NCBI GenBank assembly: GCA_007026445.1
Contig: VDMD01000009.1
Span: 186,001-250,000, forward strand
DNA: 64,000 bases
Direction of reading: 5' to 3'
Origin: Schizophyllum amplum
Lineage: Eukaryota; Basidiomycota; Agaricomycetes; Agaricales; Schizophyllaceae
Position numbers and translations under genes: made by a program. Within the stretch, counting starts at the first letter, position 1. The number at the start of each line of letters is the position of its first letter. Shown here piece after piece: positions 3,476 through 51,930 of the stretch. The notes beneath the pieces are model-generated. The model had not been told where the DNA came from. It worked only from the letters and a program-made list of their open reading frames with translations, and did not search any database.

Positions 3476-4511
3476 ATGACCGTATGCTCGGGCCTCAGTA
3501 AGCTGAAGAAGCTTCCTCGAGTCAGGTCTGTTCAGGTGCGTCTGCCCAGTTGTTTTCCTTTGAACGTCGGGCTGATCGTCTTTTCATACGCCCAGTTCCG
3601 TCACCAAACGCCCGGAAGCGTGGATTTTGTTATCAACCCAAGTCATGCACACCACCATAAAGCTCTTGACCCCGATAACCCTGCCTGGCGACAATGGTCC
3701 GCCAAGCGCAGCATATTCCCAACGCTGTCGGCGTCCTCTCTGTTGACGCTGCGCTTCTTCCCCTCCGGAATGCTCGGACGAATCATCCCCTACCACCTGA
3801 AAGCGCCTTTCGAGCGTCCTTTTACGCCTTGGAAAGACGCAGTGCGCGCACGCATTGCCGACGCGCAGGAACATGGGACTCCGCTCGGACTGCCGGCGGA
3901 GCAGGCAGTTCGTGACGGACATGCACACATGTCCCTCATGTTTGCGTCGAGCGTGAAGCGGCAAGGCAAGAGACGATACATGCGCGTCTCGGCGATGCGG
4001 GTCGTGAAGCAAGCTATAAACTTGATCGTCACGCGCGACGCTCGAGCCGGCGAGGTTGTGCGCGGTCGGCGCGAGCTTCTTCTGGACGAGGTACAGGGCC
4101 AGGCAAACGCCGATCGTTGGATTCTAGCGGGTGCGTGCGCTTGGCATATGCGTTACTCATCAGTGCTGACGGCTTTCCACAGGATGGACCTACGTTCTCT
4201 TCACGTCGGTCGAGATGCATGCGATGTCTCAAGCCGACGTCGTCGCCTTGATTCGCCCTATGCTGAGGAAGGCCTGGGACATCGGCGCGGCGCTGGAGGC
4301 GGAGTGGATGCGGGAGGATGAAGAGGTGCAGAAGACGCAGTCAACGGTCCCTCGAGCTCGTCCCCAAATCCCGAGGCCCGAAGCCAAGCCAAGTCCTCGT
4401 CTGTCTCTGAAGCCTAGGACCAAGATTCCCTCATCACTTGATGGGAAGGCTGAATGGACACTTGAGCATACCAAAGCCCTTATCGAAGAGCGAAGACGCT
4501 CGTCGAGGTGA
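3476..4511 (+). CDS. Gene U, unrecognised fungal protein (intact copy)
   Basis: I do not recognise the family. The likely structure is 3476-4130 joined to 4183-4511, about 327 aa; removing a further possible 60-nt intron (3536-3595) keeps the frame, so the 5' end is uncertain. The intron at 4131-4182 restores the frame as ..ILAGWTYVLFTSVEMH... Visible features are a short aromatic/basic block (LTLRFFPSGMLGR), a basic KRQGKRRYMR stretch, and a proline/lysine-rich tail after MREDEE. No signal peptide or membrane span is evident. A broken inverted copy lies at 38816-39801; substitutions between the copies fall mostly at silent positions in this frame, which supports coding. Function unknown. Confidence 0.6.
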
Positions 4512-5187: not shown

Positions 5188-5428
5188 GCCTCAGGTGAAC
5201 TTCAATATTCAATATACAAGTCCTTGTACTACTTGGGTGTATGTGTTCTTCTAATTGTACGTATATATATATATAGGTCTGGAGCAACAACCAGCGTATG
5301 CATGGACGCGGCCTGCGAAGAAGAAACGAGGTTCCTGAGCCTGCAGACTACCGTACCATTCCAGCTGGACCAGCTTGTCAGGACTCGCGTCCTAAAGCTG
5401 TAACATAGTACAGCTGAAAGCGCATCTG

Positions 5429-6528
5429 GTGGCTCTTGATATGAACCCATGGGTCGTCCGCCCACAGGCAGATATCATAAGTACAGTGCGCAGCGCCCAA
5501 TTGTTGCTTAAGTTCCGCGAACAGTCGACACCGCCACCAAGAACAACACCGCCGCCATTCACGGTGGTTTGAGGTGTAGCGCATCGTAGGCGTTGCCGAG
5601 GGGATCTTGCCGGTTACTGCAGTAGCTCTTCAGGTCCCAGACAGGAATGGACATATCACTGTTCGTCGGACGCGCAGAGGCGTCAACCCCACGCGCGAAG
5701 ATCCGACATGTCGTAGCCTGTGCCGTCTTCTACTCCGGATTCCAGGACGGGGCGTGGCAGGACGGAGTCTCTGAGGCGCTTCGGGCGAAAGTCGCAGTTG
5801 AATTAAGGGATAGCCATCTTCGCTGACCTGAGCTGCTGACACGGTGCGCGAGTTGTCTTACATCCACAGCCTGCCGCCGTCTTGCTGCCTCTCCGAGAGG
5901 CCCGAAGAGCGGATCGAGTAGCATGCCCGTCATCGCTGAGAGGATGTCGCCGCTGAAGCCAGACGTCAAGCCCGACGAGGAGTTGGGGCGGTGGCCGGCG
6001 CACGAAAGTCGGCGTATAGCGTCGGGCGACCTTCCTTCAGCATATACAGGGGAACGACGTTGGATTCGTGTTCTTCGTCTGATAGTTCCTAGGATATGCT
6101 CAGATAACACGCAATCGTCGCGTATCGGACGTGTCTGACCTTAAAATCATTCCTCCGCGACTGAAGATCGGCAGTCTGATTATGCTCGGAAGTGTTTGGG
6201 TTGGCATGAGCACCCATCCAAGATCATAGAGTTTCTCGGCCATGTCGGAGCGCACTAAGTAAACACCGCCAAAGTAAGTCACTGTCGTGCGATGGCGCGA
6301 GCTGGGGGGACGTGCTCACGTTCGACGTGGTTGAGCGGTGAACCCAGACTCAGGTCGCCCTTCTGAAGGCCCCAGTAGTATTCGATGTGATGAATCTAGC
6401 AATAGCACAGTCATAAACAACAAGGTACCGTGAATAATTACGTAGGTACTTACCTGTCGAGGTCGACGATGCGAAAATTTAAAATCGGACATTCTACCAT
6501 CTTCTTGCACATGGAGAATGCAGTCGAA
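5429..6528 (-). pseudogene. Family 1 gene relic (B/H subtype)
   Basis: All four family 1 exons can be followed on the minus strand. Exon 1 (about 6528-6450) has ACG in place of the start codon and has lost its end. Exon 2 (about 6398-6324) is intact and encodes IHHIEYYWGLQKGDLSLGS. Exon 3 carries the LRSDMAEKLYDLGWVLMPT block but lacks about 25 nt after it. Exon 4 has lost several hundred bases between the Y(V)VPL-like block and the SDDGHA block. The very end (WADDPWVHIK equivalent, about 5440) remains. The 5' flank up to 6628 matches the promoter of the intact gene at 45938, so this is its inverted-arm counterpart. Confidence 0.85.
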
Positions 6529-6628
6529 GGTATCAAGGTCGTATTCATTCAGTATAAGACTGGCTTTCATGCACCTTCAGAGGTGGCGGACGTTTGGCAA
6601 GTCGTCGTTGGCGGTGAGAAGCAAGCGG

Positions 6629-9300: not shown

Positions 9301-10648
9301 CTACAAGGGCCGGTCCTTGATGTAGACCCACGGGTCGTCGGCCCACAGGCATGTGTGGTAAGTACGCATTGCCCAATTGTTGCTCGAGTATCCTGAGCGG
9401 TCGACGCCGAAGCCAAGAAGGAGACCGCCTCCATTCATGGTGGTCTGGAGATGTAGAGCGTCCTCGGCGTCGCGCGAGGGCTCCTGTCGGTACCATGCTA
9501 GTCCCTCGTCCTGTCCCGCTTCGTCGTCGAGCCACGTCGGCTCCCAGACGGAAGTGCCCTTGCCCGGCCGACGCCCGACACTTTCGATCCACGTCTGAAG
9601 ACCGGAAAGGTCATAACCCATACTGTTCTCTCCTCCGGACTCTACATCTGATCGAGGAAAAACGGAACCCCTCGCGCGCGCTGGCCGCATATCGCATTTG
9701 GCGTAGGGTGTAGTCTTCGTGATGGTCTTCAGCTGCCGGCATGGTGCGCGGGTCGTCTTGCGCACGCGGCCCTCTGCCTCTGCCATGTCGCCTATACGAG
9801 AGTCGCGAAGGGCGGAATTCACGGTCTGACCGTCATCGCTGAGGGAACGCCGGTGTTCCCTCCACACATCAGGGCCGACGAGGAACGCGGCAGGCGGCTC
9901 CTTCATCCAGCTACTGACTATATCGCCGACCGAATTCACGAGCGACGTAGCCTTTTTGTCGGGATAAATAAGATGGGCACAGCAGTCGAGCTGTCCGCTG
10001 GCCATGAAGGTGACAAACAGAGGATGAGCGCGGGACTTGATGCGAGGGAACCGCTTGTACGGCGCGAGGAAGGTTTTGACACCAGATGGACGATTCACGT
10101 GTAGCGCAGGACAATCGCGCTTGAGCATCCACAAGGGCACAACGTCGTAGTCGTACTCTTCATCGTGGAGTTCCTACGTCATGCCAGTCGGTTAGATTGT
10201 GTGTAAGAAGTGCACATGACTGACTTTGAGGCAATTCCTGCGCGAACAGAGGTCGGCAGTCGCGTTGTGTTTCGCCATCTGCTGCATTGCCTTCAATGTC
10301 TCCTGGTGGGCATGAAGACCCATTCAAGTGCAAGAAGTTTTTCGGCTATATCTGAGCGCACTACGTTGCGAGGAACATGAGTAGTCACGCGTCGGTGAAT
10401 GGAAAAGACACATACATTCGATGTGGTTTAGCAGCGAGCTCAGGCTTAGGTCGCCCTTCTGCAAGCCCCAGTAGTACTCAAAATGGTCGATCTAAAGTTT
10501 TCCAGTCAGGCAACGGAGAGTTAAGCAACAAGACACGTACTTGGCCGCGGTAATGATCCTCGTCAAGGGATACGATGCGATGTTTGACGACCGGGCATTC
10601 CTCTATATCCTTAAACGTGGAGAACGCTGCTGAATGTATAGTCGACAT
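9301..10648 (-). pseudogene. Family 1 gene, copy A (one-base frameshift)
   Basis: This copy is nearly identical to the intact gene at 44007-45355. Exon 1 starts at 10648 (MSTIHSAAFS..) and contains KHRIVSLDEDHY. Exon 2 carries the YYWGL equivalent and the SLN/S-type block. Exon 4 (10173-9301) is open to the normal stop and includes the SRAHPLFVTF block, the SDDG block and the C-terminal GYSSNNWA/CLWADDPWV motifs. In exon 3, near 10304, one base is missing compared with the intact copy just after ATGCCCACCA, creating an immediate TGA. The ATG of DMAEKL also reads ATA. The single small lesion suggests recent inactivation, if it is not an assembly error. Confidence 0.75.
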
Positions 10649-11069: not shown

Positions 11070-12445
11070 TCAACGGGCTGAGGCACGGGTGCGTTTGATG
11101 GGAGACGAAGGAGGCTCGTAGGCGGAGGGCGATGAACGAGGCTCGAGATTGTCGCCGGGGTCAGCAGCATCGGCAGCAGCAGCAAAGTTCTCCGTCATCA
11201 TGGCGCCGATCTTGAGCACCAACTTCGCCTCCTGTAGCGCGTACTCGGGGACTTGCGCTCCTGGCTTGGAAAGGATTTTGAAGGCCTTCCATACCACGAA
11301 GTACGGGCAACAATGCAGCGTCAAGACGGGCAACACAGCCTGACCGGTGGGTGTCGTGAACGGCGGGTCGTATGTTGTGCGAGTGACAGTTCCATCAGCG
11401 TGATCTGTCCAGCATTGGATCGATGGCTGGTCTCCATCCCAGCTGAGCAGAGGGACGAAACGGAACTTCCTGCCGGCGAGAGTGAATGGGAAAACCTGTC
11501 AGGGTCGAGCTCGAATAAGTCATAGTGAATAAGCGATTGGGACAGTCGGCTCACATCCTCGTGATGAATATAGCCCTGCGCGTTTCTTACGGGAGGTTTT
11601 TTGCGTGTCCAGCCCTTCACTTCCTGCCTCTTGATTGCTTGTGAGAGAATGCTGAGAGTCGAGAGCATGGGCAGGATGACACAGAATCCGTGATCGTAAG
11701 CTGAGTGTATTTCCACCGTAACTGAAGCATGCGGTAAGCGTCATCGAGGCGAGGCAGTCTGCAACGCATTGAGGACTCACGGAAGATAAGATTCGGCCGC
11801 GTGTCGAGATTCAGTTTCTTGTATTCCATCCCGAGCATGACCTCCAATAGGAGAAGCTAAAGAAGTAAATCATCAGCAAATAGTCAAGAGGATATCGGAA
11901 TGCCGTACGTCTGCTCCGCATGTTCCCCTATCCGCCGCATGCGAAATCTGAATGGACTTGAGACGGTTGTTTCTCTTTGTCACTCCACAGCGCGCGCCCG
12001 CGGGTGCGACCTTCTCCAAGTCCTCGACGCGCGGCCTCGGGTCGCCCTTGATGATGTTGCGTTGAGGGGTGATGTGTCCGATGGCCTTGGGGCGACGCGG
12101 CACGTACAGCACTGGTTTCTTGGTCGGAGTCTTGTTAGGGACTAGCAAGATGAGGGCTTTGCTCCGAGTAGTCATGACATGACTGCCCGAATCGCGCTCT
12201 TTGGGATGACTGCTAGGAACAGCGCGAGCGTCGTCTTCTTCTGGGTCTTGTGTATTGGCAGGAGAAGCCTCGTCAACGCTGTCAGCGGTGGCAGTGCGCC
12301 CGTTTGCATCGCGCTTTCTGAGAACCCGGGGAGTATCCAATGGTTCACGGTCGGGGCCCTGCTGAGTGGCAAGGGCCTTGCTTTGCGCATCGACGGCGCG
12401 ACCTCTGTTGTCGCGCTTGCGAGCGTCCCGCCGGGGGGGCCGCAT
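11070..12445 (-). CDS. Family 2 gene K, HNH_2-like protein
   Basis: Four exons on the minus strand: 12445-11909, 11856-11781, 11721-11555 and 11495-11070, giving 401 aa with no stop. The N-terminal 150 residues are basic and low-complexity. Next come ISHAADRGT (end of exon 1), LDTRPNLIF (76-nt exon 2) and VEIHSAYDHG followed by a VILP block (exon 3). This ordered H..N..H-x3-D pattern resembles the HNH_2 nuclease fold (inference). Exon 4 holds KFRFVPL and LHCCPYFVVWKAF, conserved in all family 2 copies, and a Ser/Pro tail. The ATG at 12445 is chosen because it is the first ATG after the TATA-like box at 12594. The gene is divergent from family 1 gene B (440 bp between starts). Function unknown. 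Confidence 0.75.
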
Positions 12446-12593
12446 ATGTGTGCAGCTTCGAGGAAGGTTGTTAGTGATTAAGAGAGCATGAATCCAGCGT
12501 AGAAGACATACCGAGTTTCGAACAGTCGCGGCGCCGCGCAAACGAATGGATGGGAGGAGAGTGCGAAAGCGAAGTTCGAATTTCCCCCTGCCC

Positions 12594-12600
12594 TTATATA
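12594..12600 (-). promoter_or_regulatory. TATA-like box of gene K
   Basis: The minus strand reads TATATAAGGG about 150 bp upstream of the start at 12445. The same TATAwAAGGG-type sequence stands at a similar distance before the other three family 2 genes, inside the short divergent spacers. Confidence 0.6.
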
Positions 12601-12884
12601 GTGACGGGGCCCCCCCGGGGCCATACACACGTGTGAGCCCGCAGTCAGCCGCACCGGGGCCAGTCATCATGATAAAGACTGTCTTGATACGGAGAACAAT
12701 GGTCAATGTTCGAAGTCGATATCTGGGCAGCGTGGGAAGTTGAAACCGCGGTGACGAATTCGGAAGGTCACAGTCACAACCAGGTCACAACACGTTCACT
12801 TCCTTTGTTCCCCCCGTCATCACCGAGAGCCACTAGTCATCTCCTGCACCGCTTCTCTCTTCACAAGCCATCCGTTTAGTGAGA

Positions 12885-14236
12885 ATGTCTGCTATACCTT
12901 CCGCACATATCTCCACGTGCAAAATTATGGAAAATTGCCCGATTATAAGGCATCGCATTGTCTCTCTTGACGAGGGCCGATACCGTCGCCAAGTACGTGA
13001 TTTGTTGACGCGACCTGCAATGTCTGACTCCGCGCTCGTTAGATCGAACATTTTGAGTACTACTGGGGTCTGCAGAAGGGTGACCTGAGCCTAAACTCAC
13101 CGCTCAATCACATCGAACGTGAGTACGCTTTCTCCGGGCCTTTTCGCCATCGTAACTCACACCTGCGCCTGTGTTGCCTAGTGCGCTCCGACATGAAGGA
13201 AAAACTCGACGATCTTGGATGGGTGCTCATGCCAACGCAAGGCACTCTGAAGTTGATGCAGGAGATTTCCGAGCACAACCAGACTGCCGATCTTCAGTCG
13301 CGGAGGAATGCTTTGAAGGTCAGTCAGGCCTGACGCGCGGCGCTTGCGTCAATCTGAACAGATTCACAGGAACTATCCGACGAAGAACATGAATATGACA
13401 TCGTTCCCCTGTATGTGCTGAAGCAGGGTCGCCCGACGTTATACGTCGACAATGGCAAGAGCGTCAGGGGCTTTCGTGCGCCATACAGGGGCTTTCCTCG
13501 CATCAGGTCGCGGGCACATCCTTTCTTCGTCGTCTTCATGGCGAACGAAATCCTCAGCTGCGCCGCTGGTGTCATATACTCCGAGAAGAAGGCCAGGATG
13601 CTGCTGCGTTCGGTCGACGACATCATATTCTGTTGGACGAAAGAGCCACCCACCGCCTTCCTCGTCGGGCCGGACGTTTGGATTCAGCACCGTCATCCCC
13701 TCAGCGATGATGGGCATGCTGCTCGGTCCGCTCTTCGGGATTCGCGCAAAGGCAACACTGCGGTACACCGCGTCCGCAAGACGACGCGCGCTCCTTGTCG
13801 GCAGCTCAAGTCGTCGGCGGGGGCTTCCCCTTACGCTAGGTGCGATATGCGCCCGACGCGCCTCAGAGGCTCCGTCCTCCCACGCGCCGGCCTGGAGTCT
13901 GGAGCAGAGACCAGCGCGGGCTACGCTTTGTCGAATCTTCGCGAGTGGCTTGATGCTGTCGCACGTCAAGCGAACACCGAGCGTTCTGTAGGGGGGCCGG
14001 TGTCGCTCGACAGCGAGACAGCCCAGGACGAGGAGCTAGCACGTTACCGCCAAGAGACCGTCCGCGACGCCGACGACGCGCTACACCCTCAGACCACCGT
14101 CAACGGCGGCGGCCCCGTTCTTGGCGAAGGCGTCGACCCCTCACGGTACTCAAGTAACAACTGGGCACTGCGGACCTATAAAACTTGCCTGTGGGCCGAC
14201 GACCCGTGGGTTCATGTCAAGCACCGCTACCAATAA
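12885..14236 (+). CDS. Family 1 gene B, HNH-like without last His
   Basis: Exons 12885-12992, 13043-13118, 13182-13318 and 13370-14236 join to 395 aa without a stop; all introns are GT..AG and about 50-63 nt. Exon 1 ends IRHRIVSLDEGRYRRQ. The 76-nt exon 2 encodes IEHFEYYWGL..SPLNHIE. Exon 3 starts LRSDMKEKLDDLGWVLMPT, where family 2 has DMHxxFD. Exon 4 has YDIVPL, SRAHPFFVVF, VGPDVW and HPLSDDG blocks, a basic RVRKTTRAPCRQ stretch (possible nuclear signal, inference), and the conserved GYSSNNWA-like and WADDPWVH ends. It is divergently paired with gene K. The function is unknown; it may be a pseudo-nuclease partner of the family 2 protein. Confidence 0.78.
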
Positions 14237-14652: not shown

Positions 14653-15085
14653 CCAATCATATCGCGTCGTCTGCCATTTCCACTCAAAGGGACTTTAAGA
14701 AATTGACACTTGTTGAGTATCGCCTCATGGAATTCGATGCAGGCATGTTTCGGCGGCAGGTATGTAACCTTTGCGCCGGCATACGACCTTCCTAATGCTC
14801 ATTCCTTCTGTAGCTTCAGTACTTCGAGTACTACTGGGGCTGCAAAAGGGAAAAACAAGTCATGAGTCATCCCTCAATCATTTACAACGTGAGTGTACAG
14901 CGTATCTTGTTCTCAGATACGACATATATTGATCGCGAAATTTGCAGTCCGGAGCGATATGGCGGCGACTCGTTTGGATAATGGAGAATGGGCTCTCAAT
15001 TTCATGCCCACACAGCAAACCATGAACGCTGTTCTCGCACTTTCGAAGCATAATATGGCGCGGGGCGTTCACTCCAGAAGACGGT

Positions 15086-15094
15086 ATACGGCGC
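15086..15094. repeat. 9-bp target-site duplication, left
   Basis: ATACGGCGC immediately precedes the inserted element and is repeated exactly at 15992-16000. Confidence 0.8.
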
Positions 15095-15991
15095 TAGTCT
15101 CGAACCCAGCCGTTCGCCGCGCCACGGGTTCCCCTACTTGGACCCACTAATCCACGTGAGGAACGTGATCCCACGAGGGCGGGATTGAGCGGAATTGAAA
15201 AGTTGGAACCCGTGAGCGCAGCGAACGTCTGGCGCATTCGGGCGCCCTTTCCTAGGGTGACCTCATAGGTGAAATTCGATTGTCTCGCGAACTTCGCGAG
15301 CGACAACCGCGATGCGTTGAGCGGTCTGAGGGAAAGTTCGTGACTAAGGCCTCATACATAGCTGTACCCACGTACCCCCCGCGTCGATGCAGGCTCCGTT
15401 GGCAGCACAGCGACGCGTCCATTGGGACTCGGGAGCGCGAGGGCTGCGTGGTGTCACGTGATCTTAGCTCCTAAGAGGGCTTTGCCAGCAAGGGCGGGAG
15501 CCACAGCCCTCACCCTTGTGATAAACCCCGCCGCGCCGCAGACGCGACTATACTACACCTCAGAATCAATGCTAGTGCCGACACGAAGGGTTTTCCGCGG
15601 TGGCAGAGCGCAAACCGTCACCGTCGACATCTCACGCACCGCCACGTGGACGAAGTGCACGAGGGCTGAGTCAGCCACCCACTGGCGCCCAACCTTGTCG
15701 TTTTCCTCTCACCAAGGGGGCGGCCATGCCCAGATCTGTAGTCCAGCGTATCTTGGGCCACTTTACGACGAAAGCTCTCGAAGCTGACCAGTGCTCGCGT
15801 TCAGTGCATTCGCGTCGCTCGACCCTCGACCACGCGCGCGTGTTGTTTTTTCACCTATGACATCACCCTAGGAAGGAGGCCCGAAATGCACCAGACGTTG
15901 TGCCGCCCTCCTGCCCCGACTTTTTTTGTTCCTGGTTTGATGGAGAACGTGGCTCGGGCCGGAGGCGGCACAGCGGATGGGGACGAGACTA
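15095..15991. mobile_element. Mutator-like non-autonomous TIR element (897 bp)
   Basis: The element sits where intact paralogues have the exon 3/intron 3 junction. It is flanked by the 9-bp duplication ATACGGCGC. The left end reads TAGTCTCGAACCCAGCCG and the inverted right end TAGTCTCGTCCCCATCCG. Similarity between the two ends continues, imperfectly, for about 170 bp, including CCTAGGGTGAxxTCATAGGT near 15260 and its complement near 15855. Long TIRs with a 9-bp duplication fit Mutator-like (MULE) elements. No transposase-like reading frame is present, so it is probably mobilised in trans. Confidence 0.8.
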
Positions 15992-16000
15992 ATACGGCGC
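15992..16000. repeat. 9-bp target-site duplication, right
   Basis: ATACGGCGC, the exact copy of 15086-15094, directly follows the element. Confidence 0.8.
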
Positions 16001-16939
16001 ATGATGCAGTTCGATAGCGCTATCGGGCTCATTCTACTGTAGGATCTTCCAGAAACGGAGCACGAGTACGAATTCCGAAGTCCCATTGTTCACTCAGCAA
16101 GACCAACCGGGTCCAACCCACCTTGTACGTGAACAACGGATTGGCTACGCGGGCTGTTCGTGCTCCATAAGTACGCCAGAATGCCTCTTATCAAATCCCG
16201 CGCGCATCCCCTCTTTGTGATCTACAGATCGGACGATATCTTCTCGCTCTTTCTCCACACGGCGGGATCGAAAGAGCGGCGACTGGCCTACAGTACTCGG
16301 TCGGCGCAGTCATGTGTATCTGGATAGAACGACCTCCCCCCGAGTTCTTCGAGGACCGTGATGTCTGGAAGGAGCATCATCATCCCCTGAGCGACGACGA
16401 GTCCGTGGCGCGTGAAGCTATGAACGCTGCCAAGACGTGTCGTACACGCATGGGGCGATCTGCCGTCCGCAAGTCGACAAAAGCTCCGTGTCCGCAGCCG
16501 AAGCGTCGCAGTCCTCGCCACTCGGTCTACGAGCGCAGTCTGCGTCCGATACGGACAATGGTGTCCCCTGTTTCCTACGTCGGGCAGTCGGACTCTTCGG
16601 ATGATGAAAGCGGCGTTGGTGGTATGGTGGATACGCGGGAGTGGGTAGACGCTGTCAATGGCGAGACGATCATCGCGCTCGCCATTACGACTCATGGCGT
16701 TGTCGGCGACCGCCAACTGGCCTCATATCGCAAGGAGACTGCTCGCGACCCCGAGAACGTTCTTCGATCTCTCACGACGTACAACATGGGCGGTCTCGTC
16801 ATCGATCACGACGACGACCACTCTGGTTATAGCAGCAACGACTGGGCCAAGCACTTGTATGGCAGGGACTTATCGTCGTCTAAGCAGCCGCCAGTGCGGC
16901 CAGCGGGCCCTCTCGATCCCGCCTATCCCTGGATTTGAT

Positions 16940-28630: not shown

Positions 28631-29982
28631 TTAGATCCAGGGATAGGCGGGATCGAGTGGGCCCGCTGGCCGCACTGGTGGCTGCTTAGACGACGATAAG
28701 TCCCTGCCATACAAGTGCTTGGCCCAGTCGTTGCTGCTATAACCAGAGTGGTCGTCGTCATGACCGATGACGAGACCGCCCATGTTGTACGTCGTGAGAG
28801 ATCGAAGGACGTTCTCGGGGTCGCGAGCAGTCTCCTTGCGATATGAGGCCAGTTGGCGGTCGCCGGCAACGCCATGAGTCGTAATGGCGAGCGCGATGAT
28901 CGTCTCGCCATTGACAGCGTCTACCCACTCCCGCGTATCCACCATACCACCAACGCCGCTTTCATCATCCGAAGAGTCCGACTGCCCGACGTAGGAAACA
29001 GGGGACACCATTGTCCGTATCGGACGCAGACTCCGCTCGTAGACCGAGTGGCGAGGACTGCGACGCTTCGGCTGCGGACACGGAGCTTTTGTCGACTTGC
29101 GGACGGCAGATCGCCCCTTGCGTGTACGACACGTCTTGGCAGCGTTCATAGCTTCACGCGCCACGGACCCGTCGTCGCTCAAGGGGTGACGATGCTCCTT
29201 CCAGACATCACGGTCCTCGAAGAACTCGGGGGGAGGTTGCTCCATCCAGATACACATGACTGCGCCGACCGAGTAGGCCAATCGCCGCTCTTTCGATCCC
29301 GCCGTGTGGAGAAAGAGCGAGAAGATATCGTCCAATCTGTAGATCACAAAGAGCGGGTGCGCGCAGGATCTGATACGAGGCATTCTTGTGTATGGAGCAC
29401 GGACAGCCCGCGTAGCCAATCCGTTGTTCACGTATAGGGTGGTTTGGTCTTGCTGAGTGAACAATGGGACGAATTCGTATTCGTACTCCGTTTCTGGAAG
29501 ATCCTACGATAGAATGAGCCCGGTAGCCCTATTGAGCTGCATCACGCGCACCTCTGTATACCGTCTTCTGGCGTGAACGCCCTGCGCCATATTATGCTTT
29601 GAAAGTGCGAGAACAGCGTCCATGGTTTGCTGTGTGGGCATGAGAGCCCATTCTCCATTATCCAAACTCGCCGCCATATCGCTCCGGACTGCAAATGTCC
29701 CGATCAATATATGTCGTATCTAAGAACAAGATACATTGTACACTCACGTTGTATATGATTGAGCGATGACTCGAGAGTTATTTCTCCCTTTTGCAGCCCC
29801 CAGTAATACTCGAAGTACTGAAGCTACAGATGGAATGAGCGTTAGGAAACTCGTACGCAAAGGTTACGCACCTGCCGCCGAAACATGCCTGCGTCGAAGT
29901 CCATGAGGCGATACTCAACAAGTGACAATTTTTTGAAGTCTCTCCGAGTGGAAATGGCAGACGACGCGATAGGGATTGGCAT
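28631..29982 (-). CDS. Family 1 gene D, HNH-like without last His
   Basis: Exons 29982-29872, 29823-29748, 29688-29552 and 29503-28631 give 398 aa with no stop. Exon 1 starts MPIPIASSAIS and has VEYRLMDFDAG where other copies have a HRIV block, so this subtype lacks the first His too. The 76-nt exon 2 reads LQYFEYYWGLQKGEITL..LNHIQ. Exon 3 reads LRSDMAASLDNGEWALMPT, very close to family 2 DMHASFDRGLW but without the His. Exon 4 has YEFVPL, SCAHPLFVIY, EDRDVW and HPLSDDG, a basic KSTKAPCPQPKRR patch and the HSGYSSNDWAKHLYG end, followed by a subtype-specific proline tail. It is divergently paired with gene J (447 bp between starts). It is the intact relative of broken gene C. Confidence 0.8.
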
Positions 29983-31905: not shown

Positions 31906-34161
31906 GGTGACCAGTTCGCCAGAGCGTCGTTTCCTCGCTCGAGTGTCCTCCTCCTTGCTCAGAATGCCGTCCAGTCGCTGCTCCCCGGCTCAACACTCGT
32001 CTCCCAAGTCGAGGCCCTACTCGGAAGTCACCGCATCCAGGATGCCACCGACCTCGCCGACCAGCAGAGGAAGAAGGTTGAGGGGAACATCAGAATCAAC
32101 GAGGATGAGGCACGCAGTCTGTGAATTTGGCGACTGTCTCTGACTGCCTCTCTCAGGGCTGCGCTACGTGCACCACTGCGCATCGGCTGGCAGCTCTTTT
32201 CCGAAACTTTGTTCGAGGACGCTGGCAAGAACTTGTTCAATGGCGATACCGATCCGCGGCTGCTCATTGACTACTACCCCGATCTCCGCGGGAATCTATG
32301 TACATCGGACGACGCCCTCGACGTCTTCAGCGGCGTCGCCGAACACATGCCCAGCGAAGCTCGCGTGGACGACATCAGTCAGTCTTCCACTCCGCGCGTA
32401 CCACACCTTTGCCGCCCTTCCCTGGCATATACATGTCCCCTCCCTGTCTGCACACTTACCACCCTTCCTTGCCCAGCTCCCACCCCATCTCATATCACAC
32501 CAGCGCCATCCACCCTTCTCTGTTATTTCTTTCTTTCTACTTCCTCCCCAGCTCCCCATTAACGCGTTCTTTTGTTTAGCACTGATACCACTCGTCTACA
32601 ACCTAGTCAGAAACTACTCCCCGCACCTCTCGCCGAACACGGCCAGCGCGCCTCCCACGGTCGGAGAGCTACCTGCGCAAGTGCTGGATCCGCCGCTGCG
32701 TCGACCCGAAGGCGGTGCCGGGGAGCCATCCGTCGTATCCGGTGTGTGGTTGGGCAGGTAGACATATGCTGCGCGAAGTACTGACTTGGGATGCAGGTGG
32801 TGGACACGGTGTACGCGAAGATACTGGCCATCAATGCGAAGACCTCCGAGCTTGCAGCGCTGATTCAGGATGAGCGAAGCGAGATCGTCGCCACCGAGAT
32901 TGAGCCCGTTCTCATCCAGCACAGTCAATTCGACGCCCTCACTACGCTTTATCAACGACACGGAGATGCGCGAAAACTGCTGGAGCTGTACTCGAAGTGC
33001 GTACCATCGCTCAATCCCTTTGCCATTTAAAGATTGACTGCTCCTCAGAGTCGCCGATGGCGAATATCAGACGGACCAAATCAGGGACCCTTGGGGATCT
33101 ATCACCACACTGCTCGCTGCGCAGAAAGACCGCGCGTTGACTCAGCAGTGGGCTCTGTGGATGATCAAGCGGGATCCGGAGCGAGGCTTGAAGGTGCGTA
33201 TGAAAGCCTTCCTCTTGCCTTTGCCGTCATACCTGCCTTCGCGTCTTCCTCTGACCTTAGTACCTTTCTCTTGCCTTCATACCTTCCTTTTGTCTTCTTG
33301 CTCTCCACTTTTTTTTCCTGCTGTCCTCTTTCCTCCCTGTGTTCGTCTTTGCTCCCTACTGTCCTCTTCCTGCCCGCTGCCCTCTTGCCTTCGCGCCTTC
33401 CTTTTACTCTCACCCCCTCCTCACCTCCGCACCCATACAACCTATTCACTAGCTTCTCATGCCAGCGCGCGATACCGGCAAGAGGCGCGAGAAGCCCGAA
33501 GAGGAGCTCGCGCTCCTAGAGCAGGTCACGGAGGCAAGCAAGGAGGCGGGGCACTTCCTGGAGTACTTGGTCTTGCAGAGGCGGAGCTCGGTGAGTCTTT
33601 CCGCTTTACGAACTTAATCACGGTCTGGCTCGATGGAGTCCTTCACCCGTATAGCCCTCTACGTATGACTGACTTCTATCTCTTCGCAGAGTCGGGAACT
33701 ACACTCACGGCTGGCCAATCTCCTCGTCGACAACCTGCTCGACTCAGCAGGGGACGCAAGCACTCTGCGATTATGGCAAGCGAAGGGTGAGTGTTATCAT
33801 AAGCTGGGCTGCGAGCTCATGATATCCCTCATACTCACTATCCCCGTCCAGCACGATCCTTCGCTACCAGTCACGACGTCTCCTTCCTGCGCTACTTCGC
33901 CGCCACCACCCCCGAATCGCGCACGAAGCAAGACCGGCTCAAGGCCGCCTTCTTCCTGCAACGGTCCGACTTGTACGACTGCGCCGCCGTGCGCGAGCGG
34001 CTGCCAGCGCAATCGCAGTGGGCAGCACTATTCGCGGTCGAGATCGCGATATTGGATGGGAAGGTGCGTATCATGTCGCGTCTTGTTCCGCATCTGCACC
34101 TTACTCACTCACCATTCACCTCTCCAGCTAGGTCATCACCGACAAGCCCTCAAATTAACTG
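31906..34161 (+). pseudogene. Vps3/TGFBRAP1-like C-terminal fragment, copy 2 (broken)
   Basis: It begins after a CACAG acceptor with GDQFARASFPRSS and continues through VLLLAQNAVQSLL, QQRKKVEGNIRINEDEA, IGWQLFSETLFEDAGKNL, VVDTVYAKILA, the EIEPVLIQHSQFDAL block, KREKPEEELALLEQ-like residues and FLQRSDLYDCAAV. It stops after LGHHRQALK, where similarity to copy 3 ends and duplicated flank begins (34201). Relative to copy 3 it lacks the VDE codons before LRYV and a stretch encoding HRIMSMAAHDML, so the frame is broken in at least two places. It has no CNH domain and no C-terminal Vps39_2 part. It lies directly after family 2 gene J. Confidence 0.85.
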
Positions 34162-35056: not shown

Positions 35057-36382
35057 TTAAAGCCAGGGACAGGCGGGATCGAGAGGGCCCGCTGGCCGCA
35101 CTGGCTGCTTAGACGACGACAAGCACGTGCCGTACTTGTATCTCGCCCAGTCGTTGCTGGTATAGCCAGAGTGGTCGTCGCCAGCGCCGATGATGATGCC
35201 GCGCCTGTCGTGAGTATCGTGAAGTCGAAGCACGTTCTTCGCATCGCGCGCGTTTTCTTTGCGATACGCTGCCAGTTGACGGTCGTTGACGACGTCAATT
35301 GGGGTGTCGCAAGTGCTGTTCTTCTCGCTATTGACGGTTTCTATCCACTCCCGCGGGTCCGGTACGTAGAAGCTGTCGTCGTCCGAAGAGTTCGACGACC
35401 CGGCGATGGACAGTGTTGGACTCGACCGCAGGATACGCTCGTAGACCACGTGGCGAGGACTGCGGCGCTTCGGCTGCGGACATGGAGCCTTCGTCGACTT
35501 GCGCACGGGAGGTTGGCCCTTGCGCGTACGACATGTCTTGGCAGCATATATAGCTTCATGCACCACGGATCCATCGTCGCTTAAGGGATGGCGATGCGCC
35601 TTCCAGAGGTCCCGATCCACAAAGAACTCGGGGGGAGGGGGTTCTGTCCAGGCGTATATAATTTCGCTAACCGTGAGAGCCAGTTGTTCCTCTTTCGATC
35701 CCGTCGCATAGAGGAAGAGCATTAGGATCTGATGTGATCTGAAGATCACGAAGAGAGGGTGAGCGCGAGACTTGATACGAGGCATTCTGGTGTATGGAGC
35801 ACGAACAGCCCGAGTGGCCAGTCCGTTGTTGACGTAGAGAGTCGATTGTTCTTGCTGTGTGAACAATGGGACGAACTCGTATTCGTATTCCGTTTCGGGA
35901 AGATCCTACAGATGATCAGGACAGTAGGGCGGACCATCTACATTGTGCGCACCTCGGTATACCGCCTTCTCGCGTGCCCCTCCTGCGTCCTGTTATGTTC
36001 TGAGAGTGCGAGAACGGTTTCCAAAGTTTCCTTTGTGGGCATGAGAGTCCATTGTCTAAGGTCCATACTAGCCGCCATATCGCTCCGAACTGGAGGGCCA
36101 AGAGTCAATACACGCTGTGCATGAAATGGCTCGCCACTTACGCTGTATATGATTGAGAGAGGACTCCAGAGACGCTTCTCCCTTTTGCAACCCCCAGTAG
36201 TATTCGAAGTGGTGCAGCTAAAGATCGATAAACGTCAGAGAAATTCACGACTATGAGTGAAAGTTGCGTACCTGCCGCCGAAACCTGCCCGCATCGAAGT
36301 CCATGAGGCGGTAGTCGACGAGTGGCACATTTTTAAAGTCTCTCTGAAAGGAGATGGTAGACGATGCAATAGGGATAGGCAT
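35057..36382 (-). CDS. Family 1 gene E, HNH-like without last His
   Basis: Exons 36382-36272, 36217-36142, 36089-35953 and 35905-35057 give 390 aa, no stop. Exon lengths 111/76/137 equal those of gene D. Key blocks are VDYRLMDFDAG (exon 1), LHHFEYYWGLQKGE..LNHIQ (exon 2), LRSDMAASMDLRQWTLMPT (exon 3), and YEFVPLFTQQEQ, SRAHPLFVIF, DRDLWKAHRHPLSDDG and HSGYTSNDWARYKYG (exon 4). It has diverged considerably from D between residues about 220 and 330, where the copies vary most. Divergent from family 2 gene L (439 bp between starts), which suggests co-regulation. Confidence 0.8.
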
Positions 36383-38815: not shown

Positions 38816-39801
38816 TCACTCCCGTCCTCGCTCCTCAACAAGGGCTTTGGTACGCTCGAATGCCCATTCAGCCTTCCCATCAGGCAATTGAGGAACCGTA
38901 ATCCCAGGCATCGAATAGGAATGCGGGCTTTGCTTGACTTCGGGCTTCGCGAAATGGGGACGGACTCGCGGGAGCGTCAACTGCGCCTCTCGAATCTCTT
39001 GATCCTCCCGCATCCATCCCGCTTCCAGCGCCGCGCCAGTATTCCAGGCCTTCCTCAGCATAGGGCGGATCATGGCGACGACGTTGGCTAGAGCGCATGC
39101 ATTTCGAGCGACGTGAAGAACACGTATGTCCATCCTGCGGGATTTTATCATACTAATCCGCGACAAGACAGCTAAGCGCACGCACCCGCCAGAGCCCAGC
39201 GGTCGGCGTTCGCCTGGCCCCGTACCTCGTCCATAAGGAGCTCGCGTCGGCCGCGCACAACCTCGCCAGCTCGAGCGTCGCGCGTCACGATCAAGTTTAT
39301 AGCTTGCTTCACGACCCGCATCGCCGAGCCGCGCAAATATCGTCTCTTACCTTGCCGCTTCAGGCTCTATGCAAACTTGATCGACATGTATGCGTGTCGT
39401 CGCGAACTGCCTGCTCCGCTGGCAGCGCGAAGGGAGCCTCATGTTCCTGCGCGTCGGCGATACGTTCGCGCACCGCCTCCTTCCAGGGCATACAAGGACG
39501 CTCAAAGGGTGCTTTCAGGTGAAGGGCATGACTGTGCCGAGCATTCCAGAAGGGAAGAAGCGCAATGTCGACAGAGAGGACGCCGACAGAGTCGGAAAGA
39601 TGCTTCGCTTGGCAAACCAGTGAGGCCAGGCAGGGTGGTCGGGGTCAAGAGCTTCATGACGGTGTGTCTGGATTGGGTAAAGGATGAGAGTGACGCTTCC
39701 GGGCGTTTGTTGACGGAACTGGGCTCAGAAGAGAAATGCACCTTCACAGAGCTGACTCGAGGAAGTTTCTGCAGCTTACTGAGGCCCGAGCATACGGCCA
39801 T
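38816..39801 (-). pseudogene. Gene U, broken copy
   Basis: Inverted counterpart of 3476-4511. From the ATG at 39801 the same blocks are found (LSKLQKLPRVSS, ALDPDHPAW, KRSIFPTLSASSL, VVKQAINLIVTRDARAGEVV, MIRPMLRKAW). A 1-nt deletion in the LGR.IPYHLK region and a TCG-to-TAG change a little further on break the frame. The 3' exon (to the stop at 38816) is still open. It lies between family 2 gene L and family 1 gene F. Confidence 0.75.
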
Positions 39802-40445: not shown

Positions 40446-41779
40446 ATGTCGGTCGTACCCTCCACGGCGATCTCCACGCACAGGAATGTAGAGGAATGCC
40501 CAGTTGTCAACCACCGCATTGTGTCTTTCGACGAAGGCCATTACCGGCGACAGGTACGCAGCATGTCACGGTCTCATACTCATTCTGACCACGTATTCGT
40601 CAGATTGAACACTTCGAGTACTACTGGGGCTCGCAGAAGGGTGATCTCAACCTCAATTCACCGCTTAATCACATTGAACGTACGTATCGTCGCCTCACTT
40701 TACTGCTAGACTTACATTTCTGCGTTCAAGTGCGCTCAGATATGGTTGACAGACTCCTCAAACGCGAATGGATTCTCATGCCGAGGAAAAAAACACTGCA
40801 AGCGATGCAGCAAATGGCAGAATACAACAAGACCGCCGACGTTGGATCACGAAGGAATTACCTCCGGGTCAGTTGAGTATACCTCTCCAATGTGCAGCTG
40901 TGCTCATGGTATGGCTAGGAGTTTCCTGATGACGAACATGAGTACGACATGGTGCCGTTGTGGATGCTCAAGCGCGATTGCCCGACTTTATACGTCAATC
41001 GCAAAACAGGCGTCAAGGCCTTTCCTGCACCGTACACGCGCTTCCCTCGCGTCAAATCTCGTGCGCATCCATTCTTTGTCGCCTTCTGGGCCAACAGGCA
41101 ACTCAACCGCTGCGCCGCCTTGATCTATCCCGACAAGAAAGCCACAATGCTCATGTGGTCCGTTGGCGGTATCACTGCGTGCTGGATGAAGGAGCCGCCT
41201 CCCGCCTTTCTCGTCGGCCCCGACGTATGGATGGAGCATCACCATCCGCTTAGCGATGACGGACATGCAGCGAGGTCTGCTCTTCAGGACTCTCGTGCCG
41301 ACGACACGACGGATGGTGGTGTGCGCAAGACAACTCGCGCGCCATGTCGGCAGCCGAAGTCGACTGCGAGGCCTACGCCGTACGCCAAATGCGACCTGCG
41401 TCCAGCGCGCGCGAGGGGCTCTGTTCTTCCTCGGCCAGGCATCGAGTCTGGGAAAAAGGATAATGTGGGCTATGGCTTGTCTGATCTTCGCATGTGGATT
41501 GGCGGCGTCGGGCTAGGCGACTGCACCTCCATCTGGGAATCGACGTGGCTTGACGACGAAGCGATTCGTGATGAGGAATTAGCGCGTTACCGCCAGGAGG
41601 TTTGGCGCGATGCAGAGGACGCGCTCCACCCACAGACCACCATGAACGGCGGCGGTCTCATTCTTGGCCACGGCGTCGACCGGTCGGGATACTCAAGCAA
41701 CAACTGGGCGATGCGCACCTACCACGTCTGTTTGTGGGCCGTCGACCCATGGGTCCACATCAAGGTTCGACCTCTATAA
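40446..41779 (+). CDS. Family 1 gene F, HNH-like without last His
   Basis: Exons 40446-40553, 40604-40679, 40731-40867 and 40919-41779 give 393 aa. Features are NHRIVSFDEGHYRRQ (exon 1), IEHFEYYWGSQKGDLNL..LNHIE (exon 2; Ser replaces the Leu of GL), LRSDMVDRLLKREWILMPR (exon 3), and YDMVPLWMLKRDCPTLYVN, SRAHPFFVAF, VGPDVWMEHHHPLSDDG, VRKTTRAPCRQPK and GYSSNNWAMRTYHVCLW (exon 4). No family 2 partner is found head-to-head upstream; the family 2 gene M lies downstream and convergent (332 bp between stop codons). It therefore is the one intact family 1 gene, besides H, without a divergent partner. Confidence 0.78.
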
Positions 41780-44006: not shown

Positions 44007-45355
44007 ATGTCTGCTATACCGTCCCATGCGTTCTCCACGCGCGAAAATTTAGATGATTGCATGATCGTCCACCACCGCATCGTTGCTCTTGACGAAGGCC
44101 ATTACCGGCGACAAGTACGTGTTCTGTCAATAAAGCTTCGTTTTCTGACTGTATACATCTTAGATACAACATTTCGAGTACTACTGGGGCTTGCAAAAGG
44201 GTGAATTAGACTTGAGCTCGCCGCTCAACCACATCGAATGTATGTGTCTTTTCCATCCACCGATGCGTGATAACTCATGTTCCTCGCAACGTAGTGCGCT
44301 CAGATATGGCCGAAAAACTTCTTGCACTCGAATGGGTCTTCATGCCCACCAAAGAGACGTTGAAGTCGATGCAGCAGATGGCGAAACACAACGCGACTGC
44401 CGACCTCCATTCGCGCAGGAACGGTCTCAAAGTCAGTCATGCGCTTTTCTTACACATAACCAAACCGACTGACATGACGTAGGAACTCTCCAATGAAGAG
44501 TACGAGTACGACGTTGTGCCCTTGTGGATGCTCAAGCGCGATTGTCCTGCGCTACACGTGAATCGTCGCTCTGGTGTCAAAACCTTCCTCGCGCCGTACA
44601 AGCGGTTCCCTCGCATCAAGTCCCGCGCTCATCCTTTGTTTGTCACCTTCATGGCCAGCGGACAGCTCGACTGCTGTGCCCATCTAATTTATCCCGACAA
44701 AAAGGCTACGTCGCTCGTGAATTCGGTCGGCGATATCGTCAGTAGCTGGATGAAGGAGCCGCCTGCCGCGTTCCTCGTCGGCCCTGATGTGTGGAGGGAA
44801 CACCGGCATCCCCTCAGCGATGACGGTCAGACCGTCAATTCTGCCCTTCGCGACTCTCGTGTAGGCAACATGGCGGAGGCAGAGAGCCGTGTGCGCAAGA
44901 CGACCCGCGCGCCATGCCGACAGCTGAAGACCATCACGAAGACTACACCCTACGCCAAATGCGATATGCGGCCAGCGCGCGCGAGGGGCTCCGTTCTTCC
45001 TCGATCAGATGTAGAGTCCGGAGGAGAGAACAGTATGGGTTATGACCTTTCCGATCTTCACACGTGGATCGAAAGTGTCGGGCGTCGGCCGGGCAAGGGC
45101 ACTTTTGTCTGGCAGCCGACGTGGCTCGACGACGAAGCGGGACAGGACGAAGGACTGGCACGTTACCGACAGGAGCCCTCGCGCGATGCCGAGGACGCCC
45201 TACATCCCCAGACCACCATGAACGGAGGCGGTCTCCTTCTTGGCTTCGGCGTCGACCGCTCAGGATACTCGAGCAACAATTGGGCGATGCGTACTTACCA
45301 CACATGCCTCTGGGCCGACGACCCGTGGGTCCACATCAAGGACCGGCCCTTGTAG
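44007..45355 (+). CDS. Family 1 gene G, HNH-like without last His
   Basis: Exons 44007-44114, 44164-44239, 44295-44431 and 44483-45355 give 397 aa, no stop. Blocks are MIVHHRIVALDEGHYRRQ (exon 1), IQHFEYYWGLQKGELDL..LNHIE (exon 2), LRSDMAEKLLALEWVFMPT (exon 3), and YDVVPLWMLKRDCPALHVN, SRAHPLFVTF, VGPDVWREHRHPLSDDG, a basic RVRKTTRAPCRQL patch, RYRQEPSRDAEDALHPQTT and GYSSNNWA..CLWADDPWVHIK (exon 4). It is the intact twin of broken copy A on the inverted left arm, and divergently paired with family 2 gene M. Confidence 0.8.
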
Positions 45356-45937
45356 ATGGGCAGTGAGCCCGACTCCCGACGCCAAACGCAGGCAGATGAC
45401 CACGTTCGCGCTCTTGTCGCCAAGCGAGTCGATTATACAGCGCCATGCGACATCGTCATACGCGTCCGGTCCCCATGTAGCGCTGCACTTGTCACCGTGT
45501 CTCCGCCATGCCGATGCACGGATGGAGCGGCCAGGGGTGGCTACACACGTGCGTTCCATCCGCGCGAAGTTGCCTTCAAACCTCCCAGGCCTGCGCTATG
45601 CGCTCCTATTGCTGTTACGCCGGGCCTGTACATACATGCGAATGTAGTATCAGAGTACATATGTACGAAAAGTGATGTCTTAATCTTGCGAGGCTGTCTA
45701 ATACCACCGGCCCTCGCGGTAACGCCCTTGGTGGCCGTAAGGGCACGGTACTCCGTCAACTAACGCCTGAGCCGCGCGGGGGCTGCTTGATGTATCACGT
45801 GCCTCGGTACCGAGCTTCGACGGCGTCTAGTAACATGTACAAACAACGCGCTCGCTTGATTCTCACCACTATCAACGACCTGCCGAACGTCCGCCACCTC
45901 TGAACGCGCATATAAGCAAGTCGTATATTGAATGGAT
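45356..45937. other. Spacer between family 1 genes G and H
   Basis: No gene. It carries the 3'-flank element of G (45621-45649) and the promoter flank of H. The whole spacer recurs inverted at 8512-9300 plus 6529-6628, there split by the 1.88-kb insertion. Confidence 0.55.
45621..45649 (+). repeat. Conserved 3'-flank element of family 1 genes
   Basis: CGGGCCTGTACATACATGCG lies 266 bp after the stop of gene G. Confidence 0.5.
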
Positions 45938-47302
45938 ATGACATATATACATTCTACTGCATTCTCTACGTGCAAGAACATGGCAGATTGCCCGATTGTC
46001 AGGCATCGCATCGTGTCTCTTGACCAGGGTCAATACCGTCGCCAAGTACGTGGTTCTTTGACGCGAACTATCACTATGACTGATTCTGCGCTCGTCAGAT
46101 TGAACATTTCGAGTACTACTGGGGCCTGCAGAAGGGCGATTTGAGTCTAAGCTCACCACTTAACCACATAGAGCGTGAGTACACTTTCTCTGAGCCATGT
46201 CGCCGTCGTAGCTCATAATTGCGATTGATCAGTGCGCTCTGATATGCTCGAGAGACTCAATAATCTTGATTGGGTGTTCATGCCAACCCAAGACACCCTA
46301 AAGTTGATGCGGGAGATTTCCGAGCACAATAAGACTGCTGATCTTCAGTCGCGAAGGAATGCTTTGGAGGTCGGTCGGATTTGCCCCGCGCCGCCTGGGT
46401 AAATCTGATCATCTTCTCAGGAGCTATCTGACGAAGAACACGAATACGACGTCGTCCCTCTGTATATGCTAAAGAAGGGCCGTCCCACGCTGTACGCCGA
46501 CAGTGGCAATAACGTCAAGAGCTTTCGTGCGCCGTACAGGGGATTCCCTCGCATTAAGTCTCGGGCACATCCATTCTTCGTCGTCTTCATGGCGAGCGAC
46601 GCCTTCAGCTGCGCCGCTGGTGTCATATACTCCGAGAAGAAGGGCAAGATGCTGCTGGGTTCGGTCGACGACATCATCTTTTGTTGGACCAAAGAGCCAC
46701 CCCCCGCCTTCCTCATCGGGCCGGACGTCTGGAATCAGCACCGTCATCCCCTCAGCGATGATGGGCATGCTGCTCAGTACGCTCTCCGGGACTCGCGCAA
46801 AGGCAACGCAGCGGCAGTCCGACGCGTCCGCAAGACGACCCGAGCTCCATGTCGACAGCCCAAGTCGGCGGCGGCGGCTACCCCGTACGCGAAGTGCAAT
46901 ATGCGCCCGGCGCGCCTGAGAGGGTCCGTCCTCCCACGCGCCGGCCTGGAGTCCGGAGCAGAGGGCAGCACGGGCTACGACTTGTCGGATCTTCGCGTGT
47001 GGCTTGATGCTGTCGCACGTCAAGCGAAAGTCGAGCGTTCTGTAGGGGGGCCGGTGTCGCTCGACGCGGAGACGACCCGGGACGACGAGCTAGCGCGTTA
47101 CCGCCAGGAGACTGTCCGCGACGCCGACGACGCGCTACACCCACAGACTACCGTTAACGGCGATGGTCTTGTCTTCGGCGAAGGCGTCGACTGGTCGCGA
47201 TACTCAAGTAACAATTGGGCGCTGCGTACCTATGGCACATGCCTTTGGGCCGACGACCCGTGGGTTCATATCAATCACCGCTCCGCCTGTGGCAGCCGGT
47301 AG
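45938..47302 (+). CDS. Family 1 gene H, HNH-like without last His
   Basis: Exons 45938-46045, 46099-46174, 46233-46369 and 46421-47302 give 400 aa. An in-frame ATG six bases earlier (45932) exists; 45938 is preferred because exon 1 then has the family length of 108 nt. Blocks are VRHRIVSLDQGQYRRQ, IEHFEYYWGLQKGDLSL..LNHIE, LRSDMLERLNNLDWVFMPT, YDVVPLYMLKKGRPTLYAD, SRAHPFFVVF, IGPDVWNQHRHPLSDDG, VRKTTRAPCRQPK and RYSSNNWALRTYGTCLW. The C-terminus (RSACGSR) is a few residues longer than in relatives. It is in tandem behind G with no divergent family 2 partner. It is closest to gene B and to the relic at 5429-6528. Confidence 0.8.
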
Positions 47303-47377
47303 AGCAGGTGCCGCCATACTACACAACCATACTGCCCGCAGCACGCTGCTTGAACTACGACTTTCACCAACCGTGAC

Positions 47378-47914
47378 CGGGCATTCTCTCAGCAATGACA
47401 AGCATGCCGCCCTGTCTGCCCTTCGGGACTCTCTGGAGGCAACGCGACGGCGGTGGGCCGTGTGCGCCAGATGACTCGCGCACCGTGTCGGCAGCAAGTC
47501 CGCTATCTCTTACCACAAGTGCGACATGCGCCCGGTGCGCCTCAGAGGCTCCGTCCTGCCACGCCCTGACCTGGAATTCGGAGTAGAAGGCGGCACAGGC
47601 TACGACTTGTCGGATCTTCGCGCGTGGGTTGACGCCTCTGCGCATCAGACGAGCAACGAAAGTCCTATCTGGACCCGGCGTGGCTTGACCAGGAAGGGAG
47701 ACAAGACGAAGAGCTATCGCAGTACCCGCAAGAGGCCGCTCGCGACTCCTACGACGCGCTGCATCCCCAGACCACCGTTAACGGCGGCGGTCCCGTTTTT
47801 TTTGCGAAGGCGTCGACCGGTCGGGGTACTCGAGCAACAACTGGGCACTGCGGACCTATGTACGACACTTGTCTATGGGGCGACGACCCGTGGGCTCATA
47901 TCAAGGGCCATTAG
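47378..47914 (+). pseudogene. Family 1 gene I, 3' half only
   Basis: The sequence starts abruptly inside the HPLSDDG block of exon 4 (GHSLSNDKHA) and continues through a QMTRAPCRQ-like part, CDMRPVRLRGSVLPR, YDLSDLRAWVDA, the TTVNGGG block and the GYSSNNWALRTY end, stopping at 47914. Two or more frame changes occur (for example around 47480 and 47650). The N-terminal exons are missing. It is a tandem fragment immediately after gene H. Confidence 0.85.
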
Positions 47915-51300: not shown

Positions 51301-51536
51301 GCACTCTCTGACGCGTTCCATAGGTCAAGGACCGCAGCTGGCATGTCATTCGCGAGCGCGGGATGCTTATTGAGGAGGCCGAGGACGATGGCAGTGGGGA
51401 CGGGGATGTAGAGGAGGATGTGGTGGATGAGAAGGCGGCTTTGGCAGCGGCGGGTCAGGATGTGGACGAACATGTAGAGCTGGGGGAGGCGGGATGGACA
51501 GAGCCAGATACTGCGGATGTGCATGTAACAGTCTAA
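48371..51536 (+). CDS. Vps3/TGFBRAP1-like C-terminal protein, copy 3 (longest)
   Basis: About 12 exons from ATG 48371 (MAPASFPRSSVLLLAQNAVQ) to the stop at 51536, roughly 640 aa. The order fits the C-terminal two thirds of Vps3/TGFBRAP1, a CORVET subunit tethering early endosomes: a helical-repeat region, VVDTVYAKILAVNAKTSEL with EIEPVLIQHSQFDAL (Vps39_1-like), then VVSLVPPAWPLKTLSTFL and RRTLHARHEGKLVKA (Vps39_2-like), and an acidic tail. The N-terminal CNH domain of the family is absent. Exons from 48627 onward splice cleanly (for example LYSK|VADGEYQ, QRRSS|SRELHS, QAKA|RSFATS). The first junction (NEDEA to VDELRYV, 48560-48608) does not restore the frame with a standard site. It may be a truncated expressed gene or an early-stage pseudogene; long pyrimidine-rich introns occur at 49690-49940. 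Confidence 0.7.
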
Positions 51537-51930
51537 CTCAGTGCACACCCGTTGCTTTGATCTTTCGCTCAGTACTCAAAAGCTGGTTTTTGAGCAGGCG
51601 CACTTGACCGTGGGACGAATTTGCCCAAAGCGCCCTTTCGACCCTTTTAGCATACCCATTGTTCTTCTGTCTGCCCTCGCTCCCACCAGGTTCTCAACCC
51701 GAAGGTTGAAAAGCGTCGAGATCATCGTACTCTCTGCATCTAAGTATGCGACTTCAGTCCAAACTGGAACAGCTTGTGCGCTACCGCGGTCAGGAGTTGA
51801 CACAAATGTTGGCCCGATCATGCAAGGGCCGTCGTCGCGTTGAGGCTGCGCAGCCTTGTCTTCCACCTTCACCTCCTCCCAAGCCACAACGACAACGCCA
51901 TATCACGTTAGGAGGAAATCTCTAGACAGA
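51537..51930. other. Spacer; one short open frame
   Basis: A 58-codon frame from ATG 51747 (MRLQSKLEQLVRYRGQELTQ..) to a stop at 51923 is the only candidate; I recognise no family. The first 100 bp are duplicated flank also found at 470-575. Confidence 0.35.

Follow-up and report, generated by a model that had tools for sequence, protein, structure and literature searches.

What relation holds two genes together that start back-to-back four times within 64,000 nucleotides of the Schizophyllum amplum genome? The whole stretch analyzed here, which we refer to as the window, covers positions 186001-250000 of contig C299, a contig of 967,051 bases in an assembly of 49.65 Mb. Each time, one gene belongs to family 2 (K, J, L or M) and its neighbor to family 1 (B, D, E or G). 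We propose that K/B is one unit of an array of co-duplicated, co-regulated nuclease and pseudo-nuclease genes whose partners act together, a reading to which we give about an even chance of being right.

Spliced gene models of the window bear out the four pairs K/B, J/D, L/E and M/G of the preliminary description (Table 1). B starts with an ATG at 12885 and K, on the opposite strand, with one at 12445, a distance of 440 bp; the start codons are separated by 447 bp in J/D, 439 bp in L/E and 472 bp in M/G. The spacing of 439-471 bp reported earlier thus stands except for its upper value, which is 472 bp. The protein P0094, which is 100% identical over K and comes from contigs that lack K's introns, extends K upstream across a further intron and makes an alternative ATG possible 261 bp from B, so that the exact K/B spacing depends on the ATG chosen. 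The B protein and BD626DRAFT_629969 of S. amplum (P0001) are 100% identical.

Table 1. Positions of family 1 and family 2 genes and of intergenic elements in the window
Feature	Position in window	Strand	Remarks
K, family 2, HNH-type, 401 aa	11070..12445	-	spliced model; P0094
K exons (4)	12445-11909, 11856-11781, 11721-11555, 11495-11070	-	
B, family 1, pseudo-HNH, 395 aa	12885..14236	+	spliced model
B exons (4)	12885-12992, 13043-13118, 13182-13318, 13370-14236	+	
K/B common intergenic region	12446..12884	.	
CACGTG	12628-12633		in K/B intergenic region
ACAATGG	12696-12702		in K/B intergenic region
TTATATA	12594-12600		TATA-like element ahead of K
D (a215), family 1	28631..29982	-	partner of J; spliced model
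J (k217), family 2, 342 aa	30429..31625	+	spliced model
E (a222), family 1	35057..36382	-	partner of L; spliced model
L (k223), family 2, 345 aa	36821..38027	+	spliced model
M (k229), family 2, 415 aa	42112..43535	-	P0098; over HNH_2 cut-off (25.0 vs 21 bits)
G (a230), family 1	44007..45355	+	partner of M; spliced model; P0006
a196, family 1, unpaired	9301..10648	-	
a226, family 1, unpaired	40446..41779	+	
a232, family 1, unpaired	45932..47302	+	followed by family 1 fragment at ~47342-47914
a192, family 1, decayed	5378..6548	-	in-frame stops
a200, family 1, decayed	14661..16938	+	immediately after B

The window proved to be part of a larger array. A genome search placed family 1 and family 2 matches on C299 at ~158-322 kb. 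Family 1 has one further copy beyond the main array, at C299:391.7-393.1 kb, and a single distant match on C124. This search scored the best candidates only and weak copies may be missing, so copy numbers refer to the matches listed. Modeling of the loci with a splice-aware aligner gave 33 copies in ~164 kb, 12 of family 2 and 21 of family 1, both counts including fragments and decayed copies, several of which lie in the array. Even if its partners do not interact, an array of this kind accounts for a gene cluster whose annotation consists largely of hypothetical proteins. The right flank of the cluster has a single match in the assembly; the left-flank query is a repeat with 172 matches. A segment outside both families is also repeated inside the array (window 50006-51603, 502-2084 and 33519-34147; 78% and 88% identity), indicating that other DNA was duplicated together with the pairs. 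The window also contains an F-box gene (52051-53337) and a tannase/feruloyl esterase gene (54279-55585); DNA resembling the latter occurs on C1 and in other parts of C299. Rfam and tRNA scans of the 64-kb window returned no matches.

The array runs past the modeled pairs of the window on both sides, with five further close pairs outside it: k158/a160 (423 bp between starts), k162/a164 (436 bp), k271/a270 (426 bp), k281/a282 (436 bp) and k294/a295 (297 bp). This brings the close divergent pairs to nine in all, with starts 297-472 bp apart. Two further pairs, k268/a260 and k321/a318, look like such pairs broken by insertions, and the count of four therefore holds for the window, while the array beyond contains five more close pairs and two split ones. 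At k268, exon 1 of a facing family 1 gene lies 465 bp away and the remainder (a260) is found 6.7 kb off past the insertion; at k321, a matching family 2 start lies 371 bp from a318 and is followed by ~1.7 kb of other sequence and then by the main part of the gene. The insertion in exon 1 of k268's family 1 partner (C299:260362-267057, ~6.7 kb) has direct repeats of 377 bp at its ends that are 100% identical over 377 bp, and by eye it shows TG...CA termini and a 5-bp duplication. By these features it is a very young LTR-type element.

Among the 33 genes, all 11 divergent neighbor pairs consist of one family 1 and one family 2 member, compared with a mean of 3.9 mixed divergent pairs expected when names and strands are shuffled (permutation, P = 3e-5; the ordered list contains neither the copies at 392 kb and on C124 nor the small remnants of family 1). 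As the pairs were duplicated as units, 11 of 11 indicates a non-random order and not eleven independent events. Pairing is also one-sided. Eleven of the 12 family 2 copies adjoin a family 1 partner or remnant, the exception (k292) is decayed, and no intact family 2 copy among the 12 stands without one. This argues against passive linkage, in which neighboring paralogues with a bidirectional promoter were co-duplicated, each protein works alone and the pairing means nothing functionally beyond the common promoter. Such linkage, which we consider possible but rather unlikely, would explain why 10 of the 21 listed family 1 copies lack a family 2 partner, as well as the additional family 1 copies at C299:391.7-393.1 kb and on C124; family 1 can evidently persist alone.

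The preliminary description treated families 1 and 2 as separate, a distinction that we correct to a single family. Aligned by hhalign, the family 1 and family 2 profiles match with a probability of 96.5% and an E value of 9.5e-10 over 162 columns, the family 1 profile comprising 55 of 93 proteins (fused, partial and some near-duplicate ones were left out) and the family 2 profile 10 sequences. B also matches M in BLASTP (2e-6). Complete copies of both families have four exons, with three introns at matching alignment positions and in the same phases as judged by eye. Exon 2 is 76 nt long in most models: in family 1 this holds for 18 of 21 (a decayed copy, a fragment and the split a260 differ), and in family 2 for 10 of 12, with 70 nt in the remaining two. 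By profile match and intron positions the two families are ancient paralogues of one HNH-type gene, and the pair is best read as an ancient inverted duplicate.

The family 1 protein search gave 93 hits, each a cluster at 90% identity. Two are without a name, and all 91 named relatives are from Schizophyllum: 12 from S. amplum, 11 from S. fasciatum and 68 from S. commune. This search requires common 5-residue words, and more distant relatives may exist. Two protein searches with family 2, limited to 7996 and 7989 candidates, listed no S. commune hits, a result that carries no weight at that limit. Long S. commune proteins were considered as fusions of family 1 with family 2, an idea rejected after inspection of seven. 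Four (P0017, P0023, P0032 and P0039) seem to consist of two family 1 copies in tandem, and the other three (P0025, P0028 and P0030) combine family 1 with a different neighboring gene, probably through annotation. The array contains a relative of this neighbor at window 3476-4307 (C299:189476-190307), with a second copy at 39184-39733 (225184-225733), and the joined S. commune annotations hint at a common gene order.

Family 2, including K, is predicted to be a nuclease. The catalytic H, N and H are kept in all 12 aligned family 2 copies (H169, N201 and H210 in K). A scan with HNH_2 (PF13391; cut-off 21 bits) covered 11 family 2 sequences, k292 being left out and K being scanned as P0094. Two passed the cut-off, M (P0098) with 25.0 bits and k268 (P0099) with 27.6 bits; four fell below it, with 13.0, 18.5, 20.1 and 18.7 bits; and the remaining five, K, J, L, k294 (tail cut) and k321 (a fragment), gave no match. 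The HNH assignment of K, J and L thus rests on their alignment to M and k268. Neither an NCBIfam scan of M, k268 and B nor a sequence search of the PDB with the profile of family 2 found a match, and the family 2 structure model was too poor for a structure search (mean pLDDT 48.8). Two family 2 copies outside the window carry apparent frameshifts, k162 (C299:162280-163628) after the HNH motif and k271 (C299:271374-272880) in exon 1, and in both cases the family 1 partner looks intact. A literature search on HNH genes and on Schizophyllum and Schizophyllaceae returned no title on these genes, which does not establish their absence from print; one HNH gene of Volvariella described in PMC3602538 is not tied to the S. 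amplum array.

Family 1 retains only part of this motif. The HNH asparagine is kept in 55 of 55 aligned proteins, while the position of the last histidine holds H in none of the 55 and A, V, S, L, I, D or K instead. None of the 55 scanned members matches HNH_2 at E values up to 1. The absence of the last histidine together with the missing HNH_2 match leads us to predict that family 1 is catalytically dead. That the first histidine is lost too is less certain, since 30 of the 55 members have H at residue 23, near the expected first H but outside the aligned part. Judged by its alignment to family 2, family 1 is a relative of HNH_2 by descent and not an active HNH member. The family 1 structure model is confident over the first 200 residues and mostly not in the C-terminal half, and a PDB structure search with it gave no usable match.

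We compared distances among the nine family 1 partners with those among the nine family 2 partners. The two sets are highly congruent (Mantel r 0.91, P 3e-5; r 0.88, P 2e-4 without the most divergent pair), the distances being taken from automatic gene models over columns filled in 80% of rows. According to this congruence the pairs duplicated as units. Unit duplication alone accounts for congruent distances, which passive linkage would therefore also produce, and the congruence is no proof of interaction. Whole-gene dN/dS was 0.13-0.32 in all 14 chosen paralogue comparisons, three of which are saturated (dS > 2), and both families are thus under purifying selection on average. The arms race suggested in the preliminary description is accordingly not visible as positive selection at the level of whole genes.

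The intergenic regions have sequence motifs in common. Among ten such regions (nine pairs and a318), CACGTG occurs in nine, ACAATGG in eight, ACAAWGG in nine and TATAAA in seven, compared with ACAAWGG in 13.6% of random windows. CACGTG is the top-ranked 6-mer and ACAATGG the top-ranked 7-mer against the regional background, in a ranking that ignores the relatedness of the promoters. ACAATGG resembles HMG-box binding sites. The motifs are not exclusive to pairs: six upstream regions of unpaired family 1 genes hold ACAATGG in three cases and CACGTG in three, which fits with passive linkage. It fits less well with passive linkage that spacing and motifs are kept though partners of different pairs are at most 40% identical, and the earlier observation that the arrangement is maintained despite strong divergence holds.

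Contigs of ~1.5-1.7 kb designated 'lgn' encode the K, k162, a164 and a230 proteins across intron sites. They are therefore intronless, and are probably transcripts. Both partners of k162/a164 are seen on intronless contigs, with the k162 product shortened by its frameshift. Together with the short intergenic region and its common motifs and the congruent distances, these contigs indicate that family 1 and family 2 partners are co-inherited and probably share regulation. The co-regulated partners postulated in the preliminary description gain support from the same three lines of evidence, with the amendment that the two families are not unrelated.

In the explanation that we favor, an inverted duplication of an ancestral HNH-type gene would have produced two daughters. 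Family 2 (K) would have retained the HNH catalytic residues of a predicted nuclease, while family 1 (B) would have lost the last catalytic histidine and, by alignment, the first half of the motif, retaining the asparagine and the domain after it and having a C-terminal tail of its own. A single short intergenic region would serve the transcription of both B and K, and duplication of the pair as a unit would have yielded the eleven recognizable pairs. The family 1 protein may be an inhibitor or a non-catalytic subunit, acting on the partner nuclease or together with it, and the system may serve defense or intragenomic conflict. Two things suggest that the nuclease is regulated or accompanied by its dead partner: pairing persists among family 2 genes (11 of 12), and analogy points the same way. 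Against this count the ten listed family 1 copies that lack a partner and the fact that much is explained by unit duplication.

A harsher form of such a relation is a poison and its antidote, in which the family 2 nuclease is the poison, family 1 neutralizes its own partner, and the unit gains ground through the death of spores or nuclei without it. The asymmetry of pairing fits this scheme, with the supposed poison linked to the supposed antidote in 11 of 12 cases and the antidote alone in 10 of 21, as do the apparently broken k162 and k271 beside apparently intact family 1 genes and the several decayed copies in the array. We nevertheless regard it as quite improbable. The k268 frame is open though its partner is split by the young LTR-like element, which would be costly unless another copy neutralizes it; whole-gene dN/dS gives no sign of positive selection; and no killing phenotype is known. 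In a further reading, which we consider about as improbable, the pairs would form a new kind of eukaryotic two-gene nuclease system, derived from an inverted duplicate and expanded as matched units, in which each pseudo-nuclease would control only its own nuclease, such that mismatch at cell fusion or in spores would free nuclease activity and bring about self-recognition or meiotic drive.

HD1/HD2 pairs of basidiomycete mating loci are divergent, paralogous and multi-copy, and the preliminary description was reminded of them. The likeness in divergent paralogous partners stands, and no link to a mating locus was found. Were the array a mating-type-like system of self/non-self recognition, proteins of different haplotypes would form active heteromers as HD1 and HD2 do. 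The architecture is the same as that of HD1/HD2 pairs, and family 1 is diverse, with 68 of 91 named hits (clusters at 90% identity) coming from S. commune. As noted in the preliminary description, however, the proteins lack a homeodomain: none was found in B, K, M, J, L or the 55 family 1 members. STE3 hits fall on C241, C269 and C1, and hits to Homeobox_KN (PF05920), the homeodomain model searched, on C244 and C90 only, with neither on C299. We therefore rejected membership of a homeodomain or mating locus and consider mating-type-like recognition extremely improbable. On C241:220-290 kb and C269:80-153 kb the STE3 hits follow one another in parallel order and at similar spacing, as would be expected if both haplotypes of a B mating locus are present in the assembly.

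If the partners of the nuclease and pseudo-nuclease array do interact, they would make an unusual eukaryotic case, in which a nuclease is coupled to a dead paralogue of itself and the matched pairs have multiplied into an array. Schizophyllum serves as a genetic model, and many of its strains have been sequenced, which makes pair specificity, drive and incompatibility directly testable.

Three known systems provide a frame for these pairs. Like HD1/HD2, they are divergent and paralogous, are present in several copies and have a short common promoter region; unlike HD1/HD2, they gave no homeodomain match and lie on a contig where none of the mating genes sought was found. With HNH_2 (PF13391), family 2 shares the C..T, H, N, H pattern, and differs in what surrounds the HNH: its N-terminus is long and basic, and a C-terminal region beyond the motif is conserved. 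Pairs of a nuclease toxin and an immunity protein also exist, for example among bacterial HNH polymorphic toxins, and there too a nuclease adjoins a non-catalytic partner. The S. amplum pairs differ from the bacterial ones in that the partner is the nuclease's own paralogue and the genes are divergent, eukaryotic and intron-bearing.
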